Assembly: GCF_026870155.1 (NCBI RefSeq)
Contig: NZ_CP113975.1
Location: 2,046,001-2,110,000, forward strand
Source of the DNA: Flavobacterium marginilacus
GTDB taxonomy: Bacteria > Bacteroidota > Bacteroidia > Flavobacteriales > Flavobacteriaceae
DNA: 64,000 nucleotides
Reading direction: 5' to 3'
Within the stretch, counting starts at the first letter, position 1; every line of letters begins with the position of its first letter. The notes beneath the pieces are model-generated. The model had not been told where the DNA came from. It did not search any database and saw only the letters and a list, made by a program, of their open reading frames with translations. The translations under genes were made by a program, and so were the position numbers. Positions 12,836 through 45,435 of this stretch are shown here, piece after piece.

Positions 12836-13069
12836 ATGGAAAAACATCAGTCAAAAGATCCGCTTCACGGCGTTACACTTCAAAAAATAGTGGAGACATT
12901 AGTAGAATATTATGGTTTTGACACCTTGGGAGAACTGATTAAAATAAAATCGTTCAACGAAAATCCAAGCATAAAATCAAGCCTTACCTTTTTGCGAAAA
13001 ACAGATTGGGCAAGAAAACGAGTCGAAGATCTGTATATTAAAACACTTCCAAAAATACAATCCAGATAA
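12836..13069 (+). CDS. VF530-family (DUF2132) small DNA-binding-like protein
   Basis: 77 residues. It matches the VF530/DUF2132 family along its length: DPLHGVTLQKIVETLVEYYG, WDELG-like FDTLGELI, IKSFNENPSIKSSLTFLRKT and DWARKRVEDLYI. The family has a winged-helix-like fold seen in a Vibrio structure and is thought to bind DNA, but no role is established. The start is fixed by the strong promoter immediately upstream. It is transcribed divergently from smpB. Confidence 0.9.
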   Translation: MEKHQSKDPLHGVTLQKIVETLVEYYGFDTLGELIKIKSFNENPSIKSSLTFLRKTDWARKRVEDLYIKTLPKIQSR

Positions 13070-13077
13070 TTAGAAGC

Positions 13078-13160
13078 TTAATCCAGCTGTTCACTATATC
13101 TCTTGTCCCGAACCCCGGGACAACAGGATGCCGTTTCCATCTGAGCTAGGGCATTAGTTT
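13078..13160. repeat. Flavobacterium-type intergenic repeat (REP-like)
   Basis: The stretch contains TTAATCCAGCTGTTCACTAT, a hairpin TTGTCCCG-AACCC-CGGGACAA (13103-13123), then GGATGCCGTTTCCAT. This word order recurs between genes in many Flavobacterium genomes as far as I recall; only one copy is in the window. The hairpin has no T run. Confidence 0.5.
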
Positions 13161-13204
13161 TCATAATAAAGATTTAGTGTTGAATAACAAGTGATTTTTA
13201 CTAT

Positions 13205-13660
13205 TTAAAGACTCATTTCCATAATTGGCATAAACCTGTTTTTTATTGAGGTTTCGAACTCTCCAATTTTTTTGAATCCAAATTTCAGATAAAACCTTTC
13301 AGCATTTGGTTCCGAATCTAATGATATTTTTTCGAATTTTTCATTTTTCATTCGATCCAAAAAATCATTCATTAAATATTTCCCGAAGCCTTTTCCAATA
13401 TATTCCGGCAAAATAAATAAGTTGTCAAGAAGCACATTATTTTGTTCTTTGATGATGTATGAATAGTAACCGATAATTTCATTGCCATTTACTAATTTAT
13501 AAACAGAATTATTTTCAATATAATCTTTGGAAATGGTCAGGTTATTATTCCATTTCAAAATCTGCTCTTCAGAATATCCCCAATTTGCTTTTGACTTTTT
13601 TGTTATTTCTGTCAAAATCTTATGATCATCTGTGTGCGCTTTTTTGATTCCCATATTCAA
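13205..13660 (-). CDS. GNAT-family N-acetyltransferase
   Basis: 151 residues. The GNAT core is visible: a mid-protein strand NNVLLDNLFILPEYIGKGFG followed by KYLMNDFLDRM (the acetyl-CoA pyrophosphate loop, here GKGFGKYL), then KISLDSEPNAERFYLKFGFK (motif B). These enzymes transfer an acetyl group from acetyl-CoA to an amine; the substrate is not predictable. The gene lies two bases after another GNAT gene on the same strand, so the two are probably cotranscribed. The start was placed at MNMGIKKAHTDD; the MGIKK two residues later is equally possible. Confidence 0.85.
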   Translation of the reverse strand: MNMGIKKAHTDDHKILTEITKKSKANWGYSEEQILKWNNNLTISKDYIENNSVYKLVNGNEIIGYYSYIIKEQNNVLLDNLFILPEYIGKGFGKYLMNDFLDRMKNEKFEKISLDSEPNAERFYLKFGFKKIGEFETSIKNRFMPIMEMSL

Positions 13661-37984: not shown

Positions 37985-38624
37985 TTACTTGTGTATCGAC
38001 CTATTTAATCGATAGCTATATTCATCAAGATACTTTTCAATATTTAGCTCATGCATCCAAGAATAGGTACTTCTTAACCATGCTTTTACCTTTGAAAAAA
38101 AATCAGAGTTATTGCTCTTAATTTGTTCAATATTATATTACTTTTTTAACGGTTTATATCCTGTCCATTTATCGTTTTTACTTTTGCTTCCGGTGAGATA
38201 TGACTTTGAAAAATCTTGCCGAGTTCATCAGATGAATAATCGTCAATTCTTTTAAAATAAGCTCTTTTTATATTCATAAATGGTATAACCATGCTGTTGG
38301 CCGGCTAATTGAATAAGGTTTTGCCATTTGAGAAGAGGATAAACTTTTAGTAGTGGCACTCATTTCAAAAACAATTCCGAAAGCTTTACGGGTTCCAAAT
38401 TTTACTTTGGGGAAAATAGTATTTGCCGTTGGGCTCTCAACATGATGACATAAGTTGCAATCTCTGGCAAAATTTAACTTTCGAATAGTAAACTTACTAT
38501 GGTTACATTTTGAACATCTAAAGTCTCCTTTCCATTTTATTGATGCTAAATATTCTAAACAATCTAAATCAGTTTTGGATGTGTCGAAAAAATCGATAAT
38601 GCTTCCTCCTTTGAATGATTCCAT
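37985..38624 (-). mobile_element. Decayed IS1595-family transposase
   Basis: Reading leftward, the N-terminal zinc-ribbon part is intact (TDLDCLEYLASIKWKGDFRC, SKCNHSKFTI, CNLCHHVESPTANTIFPKVK), ending at ISRPTAWLYHL with a stop at 38274. In another frame the C-terminal part follows: KRIDDYSSDELGKIFQSHIS, PEAKVKT, then KVKAWLRSTYSWMHELNIEK and YLDEYSYRLNR. The central catalytic stretch of the DDE domain is deleted, so it cannot transpose. No clear terminal inverted repeats were found. Confidence 0.8.
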
Positions 38625-39027: not shown

Positions 39028-39050
39028 GTGGAATCGCCGGGAATCGAACC
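39028..39050 (-). other. tRNA 3'-end-like fragment (possible attachment scar)
   Basis: Read leftward: GGTTCGATTCCCGGCGATTC, then CA. This is a T-loop and 3' acceptor-like sequence. No matching D or anticodon arm can be folded upstream, so a full tRNA is absent. Such 3' ends are typical integrase target sites. Confidence 0.4.
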
Positions 39051-39260
39051 TAAGTCCTAAAACCCGCACTATTGCCTATATTTTACTTTGTGAAAATCTG
39101 GTGTGCCACGATTTTGCCATAAGTTTAAAAAGCCCTTGAAATCTTGGTTATTTTAAACTTTCCTGCATGAAACTGATTGACTTTAAAAGAACGACATAAT
39201 ACAATGATTACTGCAAAAGTAAACATTTTTAAGGACAATAAACTTATTAGGGCGTGATTC

Positions 39261-39404
39261 CTCATTTCAAAAACAATTCCGAAAGCTTTACGGATACCAA
39301 AATTTTGTTTTATAAAAAATTGTATTGGATGTAGGGCTTTCAATACGATGACACAAACTACAGTCTCTGTAAAATTTAATTTGCGAATAGTAAACTTGTT
39401 GTGA
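39261..39404 (-). mobile_element. Second, shorter IS1595-type remnant
   Basis: It repeats part of the 38345-38510 sequence with many changes: CATTTCAAAAACAATTCCGA and AAGCTTTACGG (reverse strand encodes FGIRKAFGIVFEM), a GGGCTTTCAA stretch, and GCGAATAGTAAACTTG. It abuts the stop codon of the cytochrome gene at 39405, so an insertion next to that gene has decayed. Confidence 0.7.
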
Positions 39405-40427
39405 TTAGTTTTCTAAAAATCCCTTGTCGCCTAATGTTTTCATAAAAGCAATTAAATTATTTTTTTCTTTCTCGGTTAGAGGAATCCTGTTGTTGTTATT
39501 TTTAAAAATAGGATCTAGATTGTCAGCATTCAAAACGCCGTTATCCAAATAATCTAAAACCGATTTTAAAGTCGGAAATTGCCCAAAGCTTCCGTAAGGA
39601 GCGGTATATTCAATATTTCTTAACGTTGGAACCCGAAAACTCATATAATCAGCAGTAATTCCTGTGACTCTAGCACGGCCAGCTTCATTAGAATCCGTAT
39701 TTAAAGGAAAACCAATGTTTCTAAAACTTTGGTCTGTGAATAACTCTGTACTGTGGCAGCTGATGCATTTTTGCTGAAATGTTTGATATCCTTGTGCTTC
39801 ACTTTCGGTAAAAGTTTCGGCTTCTTTTCGTTTTACTTTATCATATTTACTGTTGGCAGAAATAAGCGTATATTCGAACTGTGCAATGCTTTTGTAAATT
39901 CTTTCTGAAGTAATATTTTCATCTCCAAATGCTTTTCGGAATAAATCTTTGTAAGCAGCATCACCTGTAATTTTATCAATAATTTCCAAAATAGAAGAAT
40001 CCATTTCTTCATGGGTAATTATGGGAACTAAAGGCTGTTGCTCCAATTGCAATTTGCTTCCATCCCAAGTATAAAATTTCATAAACATCAGATTTTGGAT
40101 TGATGGGGTATTTCGGAGTCCTATTCTGCCTTCTACGCCGATGCCTTTTGGATTGTGATCGGCAAAAGCACTGGCTTGAATGTGACAGCTGGAACAGGAA
40201 ATCGTATTATCTGTGCTAAATCTTTTGTCAGAAAAAAGTTTTTTACCTAAGATTACTCCATATTGAGTAGGTTTATTTAAATGTACAAAACTATTTGTTT
40301 CTGGAAAATCAGCTGGAATATTCAGTGCTAATTCTGGATTATTATAAGGTATTACTTCAGCATCATCATTGCTGCAGGAGGTTAACGATAATAAAAGTAA
40401 TAGGGAACAGATTATTTTTTTCATCAT
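39405..40427 (-). CDS. MbnH-like dihaem cytochrome c peroxidase family lipoprotein
   Basis: 340 residues from the ATG at 40427, chosen because it gives a clean lipoprotein signal (LLLLSLTSCS); an upstream ATG at 40460 would add 11 odd residues. Two haem sites are present: CSSCH and CISCH (about residues 78-82 and 221-225), with LGKKLFSDKRFSTDNTISCS, GRIGLRNTPS and PTLRNIEYTAPYGSFG typical of the MauG/CcpA family. In the known MbnH-MbnP pair the dihaem enzyme oxidises a tryptophan of MbnP to kynurenine to create a copper site. Its neighbour here is an MbnP-like protein, so that role is likely. It ends the leftward copper-type operon. Confidence 0.88.
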   Translation of the reverse strand: MMKKIICSLLLLLSLTSCSNDDAEVIPYNNPELALNIPADFPETNSFVHLNKPTQYGVILGKKLFSDKRFSTDNTISCSSCHIQASAFADHNPKGIGVEGRIGLRNTPSIQNLMFMKFYTWDGSKLQLEQQPLVPIITHEEMDSSILEIIDKITGDAAYKDLFRKAFGDENITSERIYKSIAQFEYTLISANSKYDKVKRKEAETFTESEAQGYQTFQQKCISCHSTELFTDQSFRNIGFPLNTDSNEAGRARVTGITADYMSFRVPTLRNIEYTAPYGSFGQFPTLKSVLDYLDNGVLNADNLDPIFKNNNNRIPLTEKEKNNLIAFMKTLGDKGFLEN

Positions 40428-40489
40428 AAATGAATTTAAAACAGAACCGTCTATGCTCAAAGAAAAATAGACGGCTCTGAAATATGATT

Positions 40490-41353
40490 TTAGTTTTCTA
40501 CACTAGTAACTGAAAACATTCCCGAAATGTCGCTTGTACCATTTCCTCCTAAATTGTCAACAAACTTAACCATCTGAACGGCAGTGTGAATATTAGGTGT
40601 CGCATTGTTATTCATACCAGTTCCCGTTGACAAAGTAATCGTATTCGTTTTGCCACTCAATAGTTTATCAAAATCGGCTTTAATTTTAATTTTAGGAGCG
40701 TTGCTGCCAACAACTGCATTTGTAGTAAGATTTAAAGTAATGTCTCTGTAAGCATCTACGCCTTGTGTATAGTTTGGAGCAGTTCCTTCAACTGTACTTC
40801 CTGTGTGAATAGACATCTCTTTATTATCTGCACCATAAAAACCTTCAATTTTAGTAAATCGGTATCCAGTTCCCCATTCCCACATCATTTCTGTATCGTT
40901 AGCTCCAGCTGTGGCGTAGAAATTAGGAAATTTAGTTTGATTTAAAGTATTTTGATCTTGTTTAATACCCAAACCGAATTTTATTTGTTTATAAGCTGCT
41001 GATGGTATATTGCTTAACACATAGCTAAGTGTTGCAGCTTTTGACTGATCAATAACGGTGGCACCTTTATCCAAATCGTTTACGTTATAAGGTATTTCTG
41101 TTCCATCTTCTTTGATAAGACGTATATTGCTAATCACATATTTCAATTCGGAAAAATGATGTAACTGTCCTGCTGCAGATGTATTTACTGTAGCTGCTGC
41201 AGCACTTGCATTACCAAGAACAATAGGCGTATTTTTAAAAGTATTGTTGAATTCTAACGTTACATTGTTTGCGGCTGGTTCGTCATCATTAGAACATGAT
41301 GCGAATGCCAATGCGGCAGCAGATAATAAAAGGTATTTTTTTAATTTTTGCAT
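40490..41353 (-). CDS. MbnP-family copper-binding lipoprotein
   Basis: 287 residues with a lipoprotein signal (LAFASCS, lipid Cys at 20). It shows the MbnP features: VTLEFNNTF, LHHFSELKYVISNIRLIKED, KFGLGIKQDQNT, MMWEWGTGYRFTKIEG (residues 156-171), HTGS and ITLNL. In studied members a Trp is converted to kynurenine by the partner MbnH; Trp158 or Trp160 is the candidate here. The gene is 30 bases or so upstream of the dihaem gene and downstream of the small Cys protein. Periplasmic copper binding is inferred from family and context. Confidence 0.88.
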   Translation of the reverse strand: MQKLKKYLLLSAAALAFASCSNDDEPAANNVTLEFNNTFKNTPIVLGNASAAAATVNTSAAGQLHHFSELKYVISNIRLIKEDGTEIPYNVNDLDKGATVIDQSKAATLSYVLSNIPSAAYKQIKFGLGIKQDQNTLNQTKFPNFYATAGANDTEMMWEWGTGYRFTKIEGFYGADNKEMSIHTGSTVEGTAPNYTQGVDAYRDITLNLTTNAVVGSNAPKIKIKADFDKLLSGKTNTITLSTGTGMNNNATPNIHTAVQMVKFVDNLGGNGTSDISGMFSVTSVEN

Positions 41354-41380
41354 TTTATATTAATTTAATTTTTTGTATTT

Positions 41381-41776
41381 CTATTTTACTAATTTCGACG
41401 ACTGAATCAATAATAGGATAGGAGGCGGTACAAAAATTTCAAGATGCGGTTCTATTAATCTAAATTCTTTATAGATCGATACTTTATCACATAGTATTGT
41501 TTCTGGGAAAGAGACTGTAAAATCATAATTCGTGTTCAAGATAATATCAATTTTTTTACTGATGCCAGTAAGTTCTAAGTCGGTATTATCTGTTTTTTGC
41601 AGTTCTTTCTTCAAATGACATTTGCCGTGACATTGCATTTCTAGCTTATCTTTGTTAATGCAGAACTCTTTCTCTATTTCTTTTTGATTCAGTTTAAAGT
41701 GCACAATAATCAATGCCTGCTGGAAAGCCACCAGCAGGAATAGCATTGTCATTGTTATGCTAAAAACTTTTTTCAT
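41381..41776 (-). CDS. Small membrane-anchored Cys protein, copper operon (copy 1)
   Basis: 131 residues. One N-terminal membrane helix (about 5-27) is followed by HFKLNQKEIEKEFCINKDKL, EMQCHGKCHLKKEL: a C-x9-C-x-G-x-C cluster with nearby His, a plausible soft-metal site. The C-terminus has a Pro-rich FVPPPILLL stretch that is hydrophobic. A paralogue with the same KxNQxEIxK...C...CxGxC pattern and a terminal PP lies at 44982, at the other end of the TonB receptor block. I know no function for this family. A periplasmic metallochaperone or reductant for the receptor is a reasonable inference. It starts four bases after the receptor gene. Confidence 0.8.
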   Translation of the reverse strand: MKKVFSITMTMLFLLVAFQQALIIVHFKLNQKEIEKEFCINKDKLEMQCHGKCHLKKELQKTDNTDLELTGISKKIDIILNTNYDFTVSFPETILCDKVSIYKEFRLIEPHLEIFVPPPILLLIQSSKLVK

Positions 41777-41779
41777 TTT

Positions 41780-43759
41780 TTAAAAATTCAATTTTAAAGA
41801 GGTAAAAATATTGCGCCCCATTCTTGGAATATTTCCCCAATCGGCATAAGTACTGTAATATTCATTTAATAAATTTTCTGCACCAAGCTGCACAACCGCT
41901 TTAACTTTATTAATATTAAAAGTATAATCGGCAGAAAGATTCCAAATGGTATAAGCCTTGGTTAGGTCTTCTCCATATTCGGGACTGTAATTAATTTGTT
42001 CAAAATCACCATTAATGGAAGTCTGAATTCCAAAATTTTCGTGCATAAAATGAAGCGAAGTCTGATAACTTAATGGGCGGATAAATGGTAGATTTCCTCC
42101 TTTATTGTCCATTCCACGAGCATAAGTCAGCATTCCTTTCCAATGTAAATGCTCCAAAACGTCATAACTCACATTCATAGACATATTTAAAAGTTTTGCA
42201 TAATCTAATGAAGTATAACTTTTTACTCCCACCGACTGATAATTCATCGGGCTTCCCATACTTAACACCTTACCGATGATATAATTTTGGATGTAGAAAT
42301 AATTGATTTTTCCCTGAACGCTGAATTGTTCTTTTTCAAATCCCGCACTGGCATTAACTTCATAGGAGATTTCATTTTTTAAATCGGGATTTCCAATATA
42401 GTCGTAACGGTCAAAACTGTTGTAAATATAATAGCCGTAACCTTCGGAAACAGAAGGCGCTCGATGCCCATATCCAGTTCCAGCAGAGAAATTAAAATCA
42501 TCAATATTCAAATTATAGCCAGCGTGAAGACTAGGCAAAAATCTCGTTTTTTCCTGAGGTGTTCCTGGATGGAAAATCCAATTGAATTCTGCATACTTTG
42601 AATAATTATAATTCACGCCTAAAGAGCCACCTAAATTCAGTTCACTTTTTTCTGAAATATCCCAGACATTATTCATAGAGAGACCGCCATATCGGGTCGT
42701 TACCCAAGGCCAGCTGTAGGCAAACATCGTTCTCTTACTTCGATCTTGCGGATACATACGCATTTCTGCAATAGATAAATTATCGTAGGCGTTCAATTGG
42801 ATTTCAGAAGAATAACTATTTTTTTTCAAATTTGCTTTCGAGATCAAACCATAAGTCGTGCTCCAGCCCGGCATATCCATGTGAACGAGATTTTCTGGGC
42901 GAGTGGTATCATCCATATAATGTTCAATGGTGTTAAAATAAATCTTAGTATCGACCACTCTTACCAATCCTTTTTCAAATAACTGCTTGTAAGAAGCCGA
43001 AGTAATCAGCGCACGCGAAAGCGACAGGTCCATTGGTAAGGCAGGAAAACCAACATCTTTTGCCATATCAAAAATAGCATCTACCCGTACCGAAGACAAA
43101 GCAGCTGTTTTATAAGCCAAGCCTAACGAACTGTTGAATTTTTTATATTGTGAATGATTTACTTCCTTGTCATTTCCATCATAATAGTTAGCCGCTTTTC
43201 GATAAGAAATACTTCCATCGGCTACAAATTTAGAAGAGGAGTAAGAGATATTTCCAAGATTGAAAAACTGCTTGTTATTAAACTCAAATCCGCTTTGATA
43301 AGCTCCGTTCCATTTTTTTTCCAAACTAAAAGGAGTGCTTTTTCTTTTTAAATCGATGCTTCCCGCAACGGTTGCCCCGTGAAGACTTCCTTCTTGTCCT
43401 GATTTTATATCAATTCCCGAAAGATTATTACTTTCTACATAAGAAGTAATAGGATCCATTTTATCGGTACAGGCTCCAAAAACGTGCATTCCATCGATAG
43501 TAAGTGTAGAGCGTTCTGTACTCATATTATTGAGCAGAGGTTCCCAAGCGTAAGCACCACGTTTTATGAAACTAATATTGTCCAAAGAAGATAAAAAATC
43601 ATCCACTGAAACAGCCATTTTCATCTCTGTTTCAATTTTATTTTTGACAGCAGTAATCACTTTTACATCTTTCAGCTTGTTTATGCTATCGTTATGAGTA
43701 GGTTTATTTTGGGCTGTAACAGACATCGCTGCAAAAAGCAGCAGTATTAAATATTTCAT
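41780..43759 (-). CDS. TonB-dependent receptor, OprC/NosA-like copper type
   Basis: 659 residues from the ATG at 43759 (signal peptide ends SVTAQ); a longer in-frame start at 43792 would overlap the previous gene. The plug carries MHVFGACTDKMDPITSYVES, and the barrel ends in a terminal Phe. CTDKM (Cys97 to Met101) matches CxxxM and EHYMDD (His280, Met282) matches HxM. Together these are the copper-binding residues described for Pseudomonas OprC. There is no STN domain and no sigma partner. Neighbouring MbnP, MbnH and YtkA-like genes agree with copper uptake across the outer membrane. The last bases overlap nothing; gaps to neighbours are three to four bases. Confidence 0.9.
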   Translation of the reverse strand: MKYLILLLFAAMSVTAQNKPTHNDSINKLKDVKVITAVKNKIETEMKMAVSVDDFLSSLDNISFIKRGAYAWEPLLNNMSTERSTLTIDGMHVFGACTDKMDPITSYVESNNLSGIDIKSGQEGSLHGATVAGSIDLKRKSTPFSLEKKWNGAYQSGFEFNNKQFFNLGNISYSSSKFVADGSISYRKAANYYDGNDKEVNHSQYKKFNSSLGLAYKTAALSSVRVDAIFDMAKDVGFPALPMDLSLSRALITSASYKQLFEKGLVRVVDTKIYFNTIEHYMDDTTRPENLVHMDMPGWSTTYGLISKANLKKNSYSSEIQLNAYDNLSIAEMRMYPQDRSKRTMFAYSWPWVTTRYGGLSMNNVWDISEKSELNLGGSLGVNYNYSKYAEFNWIFHPGTPQEKTRFLPSLHAGYNLNIDDFNFSAGTGYGHRAPSVSEGYGYYIYNSFDRYDYIGNPDLKNEISYEVNASAGFEKEQFSVQGKINYFYIQNYIIGKVLSMGSPMNYQSVGVKSYTSLDYAKLLNMSMNVSYDVLEHLHWKGMLTYARGMDNKGGNLPFIRPLSYQTSLHFMHENFGIQTSINGDFEQINYSPEYGEDLTKAYTIWNLSADYTFNINKVKAVVQLGAENLLNEYYSTYADWGNIPRMGRNIFTSLKLNF

Positions 43760-43763
43760 TTTA

Positions 43764-44687
43764 TTAGAATAAGGTATCAATATAAAGTTCACTCTTCACT
43801 CCTTCAACTCCCGGTGTAAAATCTGTTGGGACTACCGTTCCTTTTAAAATCAGCCCATTTTGATTCATTAAGATTAAATTCAAAGTCCAATTTCCTGTCA
43901 TTGTATAGTTGACTATTCCGTGATACAAACCATCATTCTGCTGCGTCAAATCGACGTTATTGGGCGAAGAATGATTTCCCATAGAAGGTTCCGGCATTCT
44001 AGGATCGAGTTTTAAAGTGTAGCCGCTTACTTGAGAATAGGAAAATTGCGAAGCATCTGGAAACGTTCCTGCAGCGGTAGTCGGTTTATTGTATTTGTAA
44101 ATACCAGCAACCAATTTGTTTTCGGCAACTGTTGGTTTTTGGGGTGATAGCAAAGCAATATAATATTGTTCGCCGTCATTTCCTGTAAAGGCTGTCATAT
44201 TAAGATTCATGTTACTTTGTTTTTCAACAGTAATAGTGGTAGCAAGCTCCTGTTTCTTATTGGCTTCAGTAAAACTTACATATAATTTCCAGCTATTGGC
44301 TGTTGCAGTTTCATTTGTAAATACGGAATATCCAGTATAATATTTATTTACAGTATCATATTCTAAATTCGACTGATGAGGACAAGAACTTTTACTCCCA
44401 TTAATGTTGCTTATTAGGGGTAAAAAAGTGACATCCGATGCAGTTACATTCTGGTTTGTCTGTGTATTGATGATTTTCAGATGAAGTTCGTTGTAACCTT
44501 TATAAAAAGTTCCGTTTAGTGCGTCAATGCTAATTTTATAGTTACCGCTGGTAAACGAAACCGCTTCTTTAAATTCATAATATTCAGGTACTTCTAAGCT
44601 GATTTCAGCTTCGTAATCTGTTTTGTCAATCGTGCAGGAGGTAATCACAAATACTATTGCGATTAGAAAAAAATTAAAATATCTCAT
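43764..44687 (-). CDS. YtkA/FixH-like lipoprotein of the copper operon
   Basis: 307 residues with a lipoprotein signal (FVITSCT, lipid Cys at 18). It seems to have two related beta-sandwich halves: residues about 50-160 (GYNELHLKIINTQTNQNV ... FLPLISNINGSKSSCPHQSN) and about 200-300 (LKLDPRMPEPSMGNHSSPNN ... NYTMTGNWTLNLIL). The MPEPSMGNHSSP motif is the Met/His stretch seen in FixH and YtkA domains, and the SSCPHQS segment is the matching loop in the first half with Cys and His. Metal binding is inferred. It lies just upstream of the receptor gene. Confidence 0.75.
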   Translation of the reverse strand: MRYFNFFLIAIVFVITSCTIDKTDYEAEISLEVPEYYEFKEAVSFTSGNYKISIDALNGTFYKGYNELHLKIINTQTNQNVTASDVTFLPLISNINGSKSSCPHQSNLEYDTVNKYYTGYSVFTNETATANSWKLYVSFTEANKKQELATTITVEKQSNMNLNMTAFTGNDGEQYYIALLSPQKPTVAENKLVAGIYKYNKPTTAAGTFPDASQFSYSQVSGYTLKLDPRMPEPSMGNHSSPNNVDLTQQNDGLYHGIVNYTMTGNWTLNLILMNQNGLILKGTVVPTDFTPGVEGVKSELYIDTLF

Positions 44688-44981
44688 TATAAATGAATAG
44701 TCTAAAAGGGTTTAATTGCGGCATACAAACGCTATGATTTTTAAAATCAAAATGAGCGATGCCATAAATCAGGACTGATGAAATGATGCGTAAATAAAGC
44801 ATACAAGAAATAGATGCTTTTTGATACCGCAGGGAATCAGTGGTTTCAGTATCAAGAGTTATAAAGTCTATGATTTTAATTTCATAGAAACTTGAATTTA
44901 GGATGCCTACTATTAATGAATAGTTGATTTAACAACAATCATATTAAATAATTTGCACACAAATTGAAACTGAAATGATAT
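44688..44981. other. Intergenic region within the copper-type gene set
   Basis: 294 bases without a gene. It separates the second small Cys protein from the lipoprotein and may hold a second promoter, although no clear TAnnTTTG with a spaced TTG is seen. Confidence 0.35.
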
Positions 44982-45359
44982 CTATACAGAATATAGTGGG
45001 GGGTGAAAAATAAAGCCAGTAGCTCCAAGGGGTTTCTTTTTAAACAAAACAGAAGGGCTGTCTTTTACTTCAATGGCAGGAAAAATACTCAAATCCAGTT
45101 CGGTAGTGTGCTGGATATAAACAATCTCTATTTTATCTTTTAGGACATTCTGCATTTTTCTTTCATTAGAATCGTATTTTTTTAAGGTTTTACGAAGTTC
45201 ACAATGTCCGTTACAGGTATTATTGGCAATTTTTCTTTGTACACAAATAGTTTTGGCAATCTCGTCTTGGTTGATTTTGAATTTGGCATATATAATTATA
45301 TTTCCGAAAGAAGGAAGCAATAATATAGACGAAAGTAATATGACAAAAAATCGTTTCAG
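44982..45359 (-). CDS. Small membrane-anchored Cys protein, copper operon (copy 2)
   Basis: About 125 residues. The first TTG (45320) would cut off half of the N-terminal membrane helix. Extending upstream gives (M)KRFFVILLSSILLLPSFG, which lines up with MKKVFSITMTMLFLL of the paralogue at 41381, if the CTG at 45359 is used. The core is KFKINQDEIAKTICVQRKI, ANNTCNGHCELRKTL: the same C-x8/9-C-x-G-x-C cluster. The C-terminus ends IFHPPLYSV. It is the first gene of the leftward set; the predicted promoter and palindrome lie 20-75 bases upstream. Function unknown; metal handling inferred. Confidence 0.7.
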   Translation of the reverse strand: MKRFFVILLSSILLLPSFGNIIIYAKFKINQDEIAKTICVQRKIANNTCNGHCELRKTLKKYDSNERKMQNVLKDKIEIVYIQHTTELDLSIFPAIEVKDSPSVLFKKKPLGATGFIFHPPLYSV

Positions 45360-45381
45360 ACTAGTTTTTGTTTAGTGACGC

Positions 45382-45435
45382 AAAAATAGTATTTTCTTTT
45401 AAGATAAACTTATCTTAAAAGAAAATACTATTTTT
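45382..45435. promoter_or_regulatory. 54-bp palindrome over the copper operon promoter
   Basis: Two perfect 26-base inverted arms (45382-45407 and 45410-45435) are separated by two bases; the centre reads AAGATAAACTTATCTT. Read leftward, the distal arm ends in TATTTTTG (45388-45381), a -7 box that would start transcription about 15 bases before the CTG at 45359. This is a candidate metal-responsive operator. A terminator is less likely because no gene on either side ends here. Confidence 0.7.

Follow-up and report, generated by a model that had tools for sequence, protein, structure and literature searches.

The 64,000-nucleotide stretch of the Flavobacterium marginilacus genome analysed here (contig NZ_CP113975.1, positions 2,046,001 to 2,110,000; hereafter the window) contains a leftwards-transcribed operon of six genes that we read, with reasonable confidence, as a copper-acquisition operon carrying two built-in copper switches. 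In order of transcription the genes encode a small Cys protein (SCP2), a YtkA-type lipoprotein, an OprC-like TonB-dependent receptor, a second small Cys protein (SCP1), and MbnP- and MbnH-like proteins (Table 1). A first-pass annotation, made from the sequence alone, had placed six leftwards genes at 39405..45435 and interpreted them together as a system that brings copper across the outer membrane and hands it on in the periplasm. The six open reading frames (ORFs) are present at that location, and homology and conservation bear out a copper operon of receptor, lipoprotein and MbnP/MbnH pair; copper handling is not the best reading of the two SCPs, whose anatomy and placement are a better fit to copper-sensing leader ORFs. 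The functional claims made below rest on homology and anatomy.

The operon was compared with loci of receptor relatives found by scanning genome contigs, of which the best 80 of 207 were retained together with flanks of up to 8 kb; because of this choice the counts of gene order speak for close relatives, and as all locus counts are drawn from related genomes they do not represent independent events. In other Bacteroidota, where the first-pass annotation had proposed looking for the six-gene set, the genes for lipoprotein, receptor, MbnP and MbnH share a strand and keep this order at 80/80 loci. An SCP precedes the lipoprotein gene at 79/80, the exception (L067) being a locus whose sequence begins 172 bases before the lipoprotein ORF, and a second SCP lies between receptor and MbnP at 49/80, including one shortened copy with a reduced reading frame (L062:9985-10197). 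Named hosts include Flavobacterium, Winogradskyella, Chryseobacterium, Sphingobacterium, Parapedobacter and a Myroides metagenome-assembled genome; among named relatives, those nearest to the operon come from Flavobacterium species. Receptor matches occur in 185/395 genomes of the phylum, with identities of at least 65% at only ten places, the operon itself included.

The annotation had also made its copper reading depend on homologous loci keeping their metal ligands, and these are kept at all 80 loci: C97, M101, H280 and M282 of the receptor, M231, M236, H239 and M263 of the lipoprotein, W158, W160, H65 and H183 of MbnP, and both CxxCH haem motifs of MbnH are unchanged throughout. As judged from these sequences, the conservation of ligands and gene order is far beyond chance. 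At 20 more distant loci (L011-L030) the lipoprotein gene adjoins the receptor gene in 17, and MbnP is found at 0/20 within ~1.5 kb.

The receptor aligns with OprC as had been proposed, with CTDKM falling on CPNRM and HYM on HIM (ligands C97/M101 and H280/M282). Its phmmer match to OprC (6fok) has an E value of 1.3e-7, and no Pfam family matches at E<=1; it scores 74.6 bits against a cut-off of 472.45 with the copper-receptor model TIGR01778, and 93.4 bits, likewise below the cut-off, with the haem/transferrin receptor model TIGR01786. The assignment of the last two genes as MbnP- and MbnH-like is borne out by matches above the cut-offs to PF20243 (124 bits for MbnP, cut-off 27) and PF03150 (165 bits for MbnH), together with scores below the cut-offs of TIGR04052 (64.8 vs 140 bits) and TIGR04039 (200.2 vs 362.85 bits). 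Because none of the three proteins passes its strict NCBIfam cut-off, they are referred to as OprC-like, MbnP-family and MbnH-like.

A structure model of the MbnP-like protein matches solely chains of MbnP (7l6g) at E<=0.001 (E 1.5e-9, TM 0.58). A search of the PDB with the single sequence gave a chance match only and a profile was needed; in a profile of 40 MbnPs the WxW motif and His align with those of 7l6g, and W158, W160 and H183 are invariant in the 40 sequences. By this comparison the lipoprotein holds a candidate kynurenine/His copper site. The best PDB match for a profile of 19 MbnHs is MbnH (6e1c). The MbnP and MbnH of this operon branch apart from most other aligned pairs, including a second pair in the same genome. 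The FixH/YtkA-like character attributed to the upstream lipoprotein is retained narrowly, with a score of 28.6 for PF13115 (YtkA) against a cut-off of 25.9. In the PDB its family profile has a single match, to a copper resistance protein (9ll2, E 4e-7), and a fold search with the model of this protein returned generic, mostly Ig-like matches that are uninformative on function; it is a candidate copper-binding partner of the receptor. By homology, a role of the operon in copper acquisition is well supported.

The SCPs of the 80 loci form a single cluster of 133 proteins. In an alignment of 23 diverse members the only invariant columns are C38, C48, G50, C52, P119 and P120, corresponding to the motif C-x9-CxGxC, of which the core CxGxC is a CxxxC, and to a Pro-Pro near the stop that forms part of the end motifs F[HR]PP or VPPP; an N-terminal hydrophobic segment is present in all 23, judged by eye. 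SCP1 has 131 aa, with the first Pro 15th from the C-terminus, and SCP2 has 125 aa. Neither matches DUF2946 at E<=1 or anything convincing in Pfam, and seven other SCPs likewise gave no DUF2946 match. A profile search finds the family in 119/296 genomes of the phylum, with six copies in the window genome, and a protein database contains 1582 matches; among the 120 of these that were listed, none has a Pfam domain or functional name.

The Pro-Pro is a constant feature of the C-terminus, occurring in the last 16 residues of 132/133 SCPs vs 18/1185 other ORFs of the same loci. Eighty stretches around SCP matches, most of them outside this operon, were hand-picked from the lists of the genome profile search; in these the Pro-Pro begins no more than nine residues from the end in 84/84 rows (83 distinct) and the Cys motif is present in 83/84. 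A profile made from the N-terminal part only recovers the same 84, which shows that the search itself did not create the end motif, and with Pro-Pro in the last 20 residues of 84/84 compared with 14/431 background ORFs it rules out chance as the origin. Among the 120 listed database proteins, 115 have Pro-Pro in the last 20 residues; of the five that do not, two were inspected and have PPP followed by a longer tail. The spacing from Cys motif to Pro-Pro is similarly constrained, at 62-69 residues in 131 SCPs (median 66) and 61-73 in 83 SCPs (median 67), and random SCP pairs are 25% identical within the spacer vs 44% in the region of the Cys motif. Different synonymous codons are used for the Pro residues, and it is therefore the peptide that is conserved.

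The genes that follow SCPs are often of the types found in this operon. In 79/83 cases the SCP and the gene after it share a strand, and the families of 76 next genes include TonB plug (36), MbnP (22), YtkA (4), a phenol-degradation-type outer-membrane family (4), YHS (2) and AraC (2). An OprC-type CxxxM is present in 14/36 SCP-next genes of more than 550 residues (8 of them as ACPNRM), compared with 0/19 other TonB-type proteins from the same loci, which served as controls. Elsewhere in the window genome an SCP, MbnP and MbnH stand alone in this order (L146). Since SCP-MbnP-MbnH occurs alone, and distant loci have the lipoprotein and receptor without MbnP, the operon looks like two joined sensor-headed cassettes, SCP2-lipoprotein-receptor and SCP1-MbnP-MbnH. 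Where the middle SCP is missing (31/80 loci), only the first sensor would govern the second cassette.

Two other SCP loci of the same genome were noted by eye. One (L149, G000:C1:2240061-2248612) combines an SCP in one operon with genes for two TonB-type receptors, for lipoproteins and for a PepSY_TM-like protein. In the other (L147, G000:C1:2256365-2258942) the SCP is not first, the order being an SCO1-like gene, the SCP, an AraC-type regulator and a superoxide-dismutase-like gene. A second small-protein family was seen in Winogradskyella (L079, L081, L083, L086, L088, L092, L093 and L102, at about 12880-13660), with CxxC, then 52 residues, PPP (mostly RPPP) and three final residues. In 8/8 cases it lies 189-252 nt upstream of a protein of 789-793 residues that is TonB-type by eye, and the one member scanned has no Pfam or NCBIfam match; it is likely another leader of the CruR kind.

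Upstream of SCP2 there is evidence for a promoter. The -7 box counts use the Bacteroidota promoter-box consensus; the sequence TAnnTTTG occurs upstream of SCP2 in 65/80 sequences vs 15.8 expected from shuffles, with no excess between SCP2 and the lipoprotein gene (15/79 vs 17.1 by shuffle). This enrichment before SCP2 and not after it therefore fits a single promoter ahead of SCP2, and an internal promoter in the SCP2-lipoprotein gap is unsupported by the same count. The full two-box promoter is found in 1/79 of these gaps. The gaps between genes had been described as mostly short, which is correct, with gaps of 62, 27, 3 and 4 nt (counted from the last gene towards the first), but the one after SCP2 is long at 294 nt; at 79 loci this last gap ranges from 79 to 546 nt. 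In Flavobacterium the ~90 nt preceding the lipoprotein start (window 44688-44780) are better conserved than the rest of the gap and have no predicted structure. The outer boundary of the annotated region, 45435, coincides with the outer end of a perfect 26-bp inverted repeat that is absent from the upstream sequences of the seven relatives compared.

Table 1. Features of the six-gene operon and its upstream region (window coordinates).
Feature	Position	Strand	Basis
MbnH-like di-haem MauG/CCP-family lipoprotein, two CxxCH, last gene	39405..40427	-	PF03150, haem motifs, 6e1c
MbnP-like lipoprotein, WxW and conserved His	40490..41353	-	PF20243, model vs 7l6g
SCP1, small Cys protein, C-x9-CxGxC, C-terminal VPPP, directly upstream of mbnP	41381..41776	-	
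OprC-like TonB-dependent receptor, CxxxM and HxM	41780..43759	-	phmmer to 6fok
YtkA-type lipoprotein, MPxxSMGNH and later conserved Met	43764..44687	-	PF13115, profile match 9ll2
SCP2-lipoprotein gap, 294 nt; expected site of copper-dependent attenuation	44688..44981	-	
SCP2, first ORF of the operon, C-x9-CxGxC, C-terminal FHPPLYSV, CTG start	44982..45359	-	
Putative Bacteroidota -7 box TATTTTTG of the operon promoter	45381..45388	-	
Perfect 26-bp inverted repeat, 2-nt loop, spanning the promoter ahead of SCP2	45382..45435	.	

Two described copper leaders bear on the SCPs. In CruR, the leader of the bfrG/crtA operon of Bordetella pertussis, the response to copper depends on CxxC, and expression depends on RAPP; relief of an arrest by copper is proposed, Rho terminates transcription before the receptor gene, and the copper response is independent of the signal peptide (PMC9426467). 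Arrest of CruR at its two Pro was later demonstrated in vitro (excerpt of PMC12992588). In CutF, the cutO leader of Rhodobacter capsulatus, an exported CxxxC and a Pro-rich end let periplasmic copper raise cutO expression (PMC9973294). We read the SCPs as sensors of the CruR/CutF type because of their size, hydrophobic segment, Cys residues, terminal Pro-Pro, spacing and the presence of a copy upstream of each target, and they are probably nascent-chain copper sensors.

Under this interpretation the OprC-like receptor, through CxxxM and HxM, would bring copper across the outer membrane, the YtkA-type lipoprotein with its Met and His residues would take or pass it, and MbnH would oxidise a Trp of MbnP so that MbnP is able to hold copper. 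SCP2, translated first from the single promoter, and SCP1, just before mbnP, would be short-lived leader proteins whose N-terminal hydrophobic segment brings the growing chain to the Sec translocon. The ribosome would pause at Pro-Pro a few codons before the stop, when the ~66 residues would place the Cys motif immediately beyond the periplasmic opening of the translocon. Copper on the Cys motif would then alter the pause and with it the expression of the next genes, with a termination or unfolding step linking the two. Copper is predicted to release the pause and turn the uptake genes off, as in CruR, a direction chosen because of the role of the target genes and the CruR precedent. The SCPs may sense periplasmic copper, which is favoured because a spacing of 61-73 fits ribosome plus translocon and the 45 residues of CruR do not, and because CruR responds without its signal peptide. 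A broader and more tentative proposal is that SCPs are Bacteroidota-wide periplasmic copper sensors that use the ~66-residue spacer as a ruler, with two in series here such that import (receptor/lipoprotein) and the storage or delivery of copper (MbnP/MbnH) would be switched on at different copper levels.

Several observations weigh against built-in copper switches of this kind. The apparent start codon of SCP2 in the window genome is CTG (45357-45359), compared with TTG in 30/33 Flavobacterium relatives (3 not found), and because of this SCP2 may be weakly translated. The full two-box promoter is present in just 11/80 regions upstream of SCP2, and RNAalifold finds no consensus structure in 32 SCP2-lipoprotein gaps (the window and Flavobacterium relatives). 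CxxxM is missing from 22/36 receptor-size next genes, and two next genes are AraC regulators. The SCP ends F[HR]PP/VPPP differ from the RAPP of CruR, and DUF2946 genes are systematically first (PMC9426467), whereas SCP1 is inside the operon. The translocon measurements behind the spacing argument are mammalian (PMC6286305). Finally, C exceeds G in 94% of the 3' ends of SCPs (n=154) vs 23% of controls (n=429), but amino-acid composition and local codon use predict 0.0235 of 0.0294 (132 operon-locus SCPs); as composition mostly explains the bias, it was rejected as a Rho site and is not counted as evidence for Rho. The base composition of the gaps after SCPs is no different from controls.

Among other explanations, a switch of opposite sign, as in CutF, is improbable but retains some merit: copper on the exported Cys would strengthen the pause, the mRNA would open and the next genes would be turned on, implying a role in tolerance or loading and not in uptake during starvation. 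CxGxC is an instance of the CutF motif CxxxC (PMC9973294), the long spacing fits export, and the YtkA domain resembles a copper resistance protein (9ll2). Yet the Pseudomonas aeruginosa oprC gene, which is preceded by a cruR homologue, is downregulated by copper (PMC9426467), hairpin opening is thought to be restricted to short gaps (PMC9973294) whereas the gap after SCP2 reaches 546 nt, and no conserved hairpin was found in the gaps compared. The view closest to the first-pass annotation, that SCPs are mature periplasmic or inner-membrane chaperones or relays that bind Cu(I) with their three Cys and deliver it to MbnP or to an importer of the inner membrane, is unlikely. The conserved Cys triad, the N-terminal hydrophobic segment and the company of copper-type genes are as it would predict, but a chaperone has no evident use for a Pro-Pro 3-17 residues ahead of the stop, invariance in 23 members extends to just three Cys, one Gly and Pro-Pro, with a 25% identical spacer of near-constant length, and SCP copies lie beside their own targets (six in the genome) where one diffusible chaperone would suffice. 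That the receptor and its partners serve another ligand (haem, another metal or a metallophore), copper being incidental, is very unlikely, for the higher score of TIGR01786 than of TIGR01778 (both below cut-offs) is set against both OprC copper ligand pairs being kept at 80/80 loci and the fixed linkage to MbnP/MbnH and YtkA-type proteins.

The genomic surroundings of the operon have features of their own. A 23-bp direct repeat is present at window positions 39028-39050 (G000:C1:2085028) and at G000:C1:2263987-2264009; it is identical to the 3' end of a tmRNA gene (ssrA), and ARAGORN predicts a tmRNA at the second copy, next to which lies what is by eye a likely integrase (2262380-2263684). 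The two copies bound 179 kb that resemble an integrated island, in which this operon occupies one end and two further SCP operons are found. In a conspecific genome (G202) the repeat occurs as a single exact copy and the receptor has no match; the other flank there does not match the window, leaving an empty site unproven. Two fragments adjoining the island end (38274-38624 and 39125-39343) share RKAFGIVFEM, and the first has a transposase-like zinc-ribbon start by eye.

The annotation was unaware of a description of this gene set. In the literature searched, with supplements and preprints outside its scope, no publication is recognisably about this operon or the SCP family, and to that extent it stands; cruR-headed operons with OprC-type receptors and MbnPH-like genes are in print for other phyla, the excerpt leaving unstated whether the two co-occur in one operon (PMC9426467). 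The kind of system is thus already known, and what is added here is the SCP family motif, its spacing and the two-sensor operon. Bacteroidota copper uptake and its regulation are little described in the literature searched. Should the SCPs be leaders of this kind, differing in their end motif, a single family would control copper receptors and MbnP/MbnH pairs in much of the phylum, a large number of small proteins called 'hypothetical' and of TonB receptors without an assignment would be linked to copper, and the ~66-residue rule would separate periplasmic from cytoplasmic nascent-chain sensing.

Among known systems, OprC (6fok) is likewise a TonB receptor and has CxxxM and HxM in aligned places, although overall similarity to the window receptor is weak, the TIGR01778 cut-off being missed. 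The described MbnP/MbnH pair (7l6g, 6e1c; excerpt of PMC3621798) shares with that of the window the adjacency, WxW and His, di-haem partner and MbnP fold; the window MbnP has no C-terminal HVHND and has H65, and its MbnH has PYGSFG in place of PYMHDG and no HHGHxxSHG. The third gene of the cruR-crtA-bp2921 operon encodes a PepSY_TM protein (excerpt of PMC13038864), and the SCP operon L149 is similar in make-up through its PepSY_TM-like gene.

Like CruR (DUF2946), the SCPs are small, have a putative N-terminal export signal and a candidate Cys copper motif, end with Pro-Pro just ahead of the stop at a near-fixed distance from the Cys motif, and head an operon with a copper TonB receptor (PMC9426467). 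They differ in having no DUF2946 match, in C-x9-CxGxC where CruR has CxxC, and in a spacing of 61-73 residues compared with 45 (give or take one or two). An arrest-peptide survey, in the excerpt available (PMC12992588), excepts Bacteroidota from the lineages with copper-linked RAPP/RGPP leaders and reports TonB-linked RAPP/RGPP leaders in Gram-negatives generally. For CutF, list D of CutF-like proteins has 5,334 entries, 19% from Bacteroidota (40% after normalising), with TonB proteins as common neighbours (PMC9973294). SCP1 and SCP2 fit the CutF-like rule in size, motifs and gene placement (fewer than 150 aa, CxxxC, Pro-Pro no more than 15 residues from the C-terminus and a same-strand next gene within 1,000 nt), their next genes lying at 27 and 294 nt on the same strand; for the cleavable Sec signal peptide that belongs to the same rule, the N-terminal hydrophobic segment is the candidate. 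List D probably contains many SCPs; in the portion of text available for that list neither 'spacing' nor 'Mbn' occurs. The SCPs share with CutF the CxxxC core, the C-terminal Pro-Pro, a putative export signal and the same-strand next gene, and are distinguished by a third Cys 9 residues upstream, the near-fixed ~66-residue spacing, target genes of uptake type and a longer gap after SCP2.

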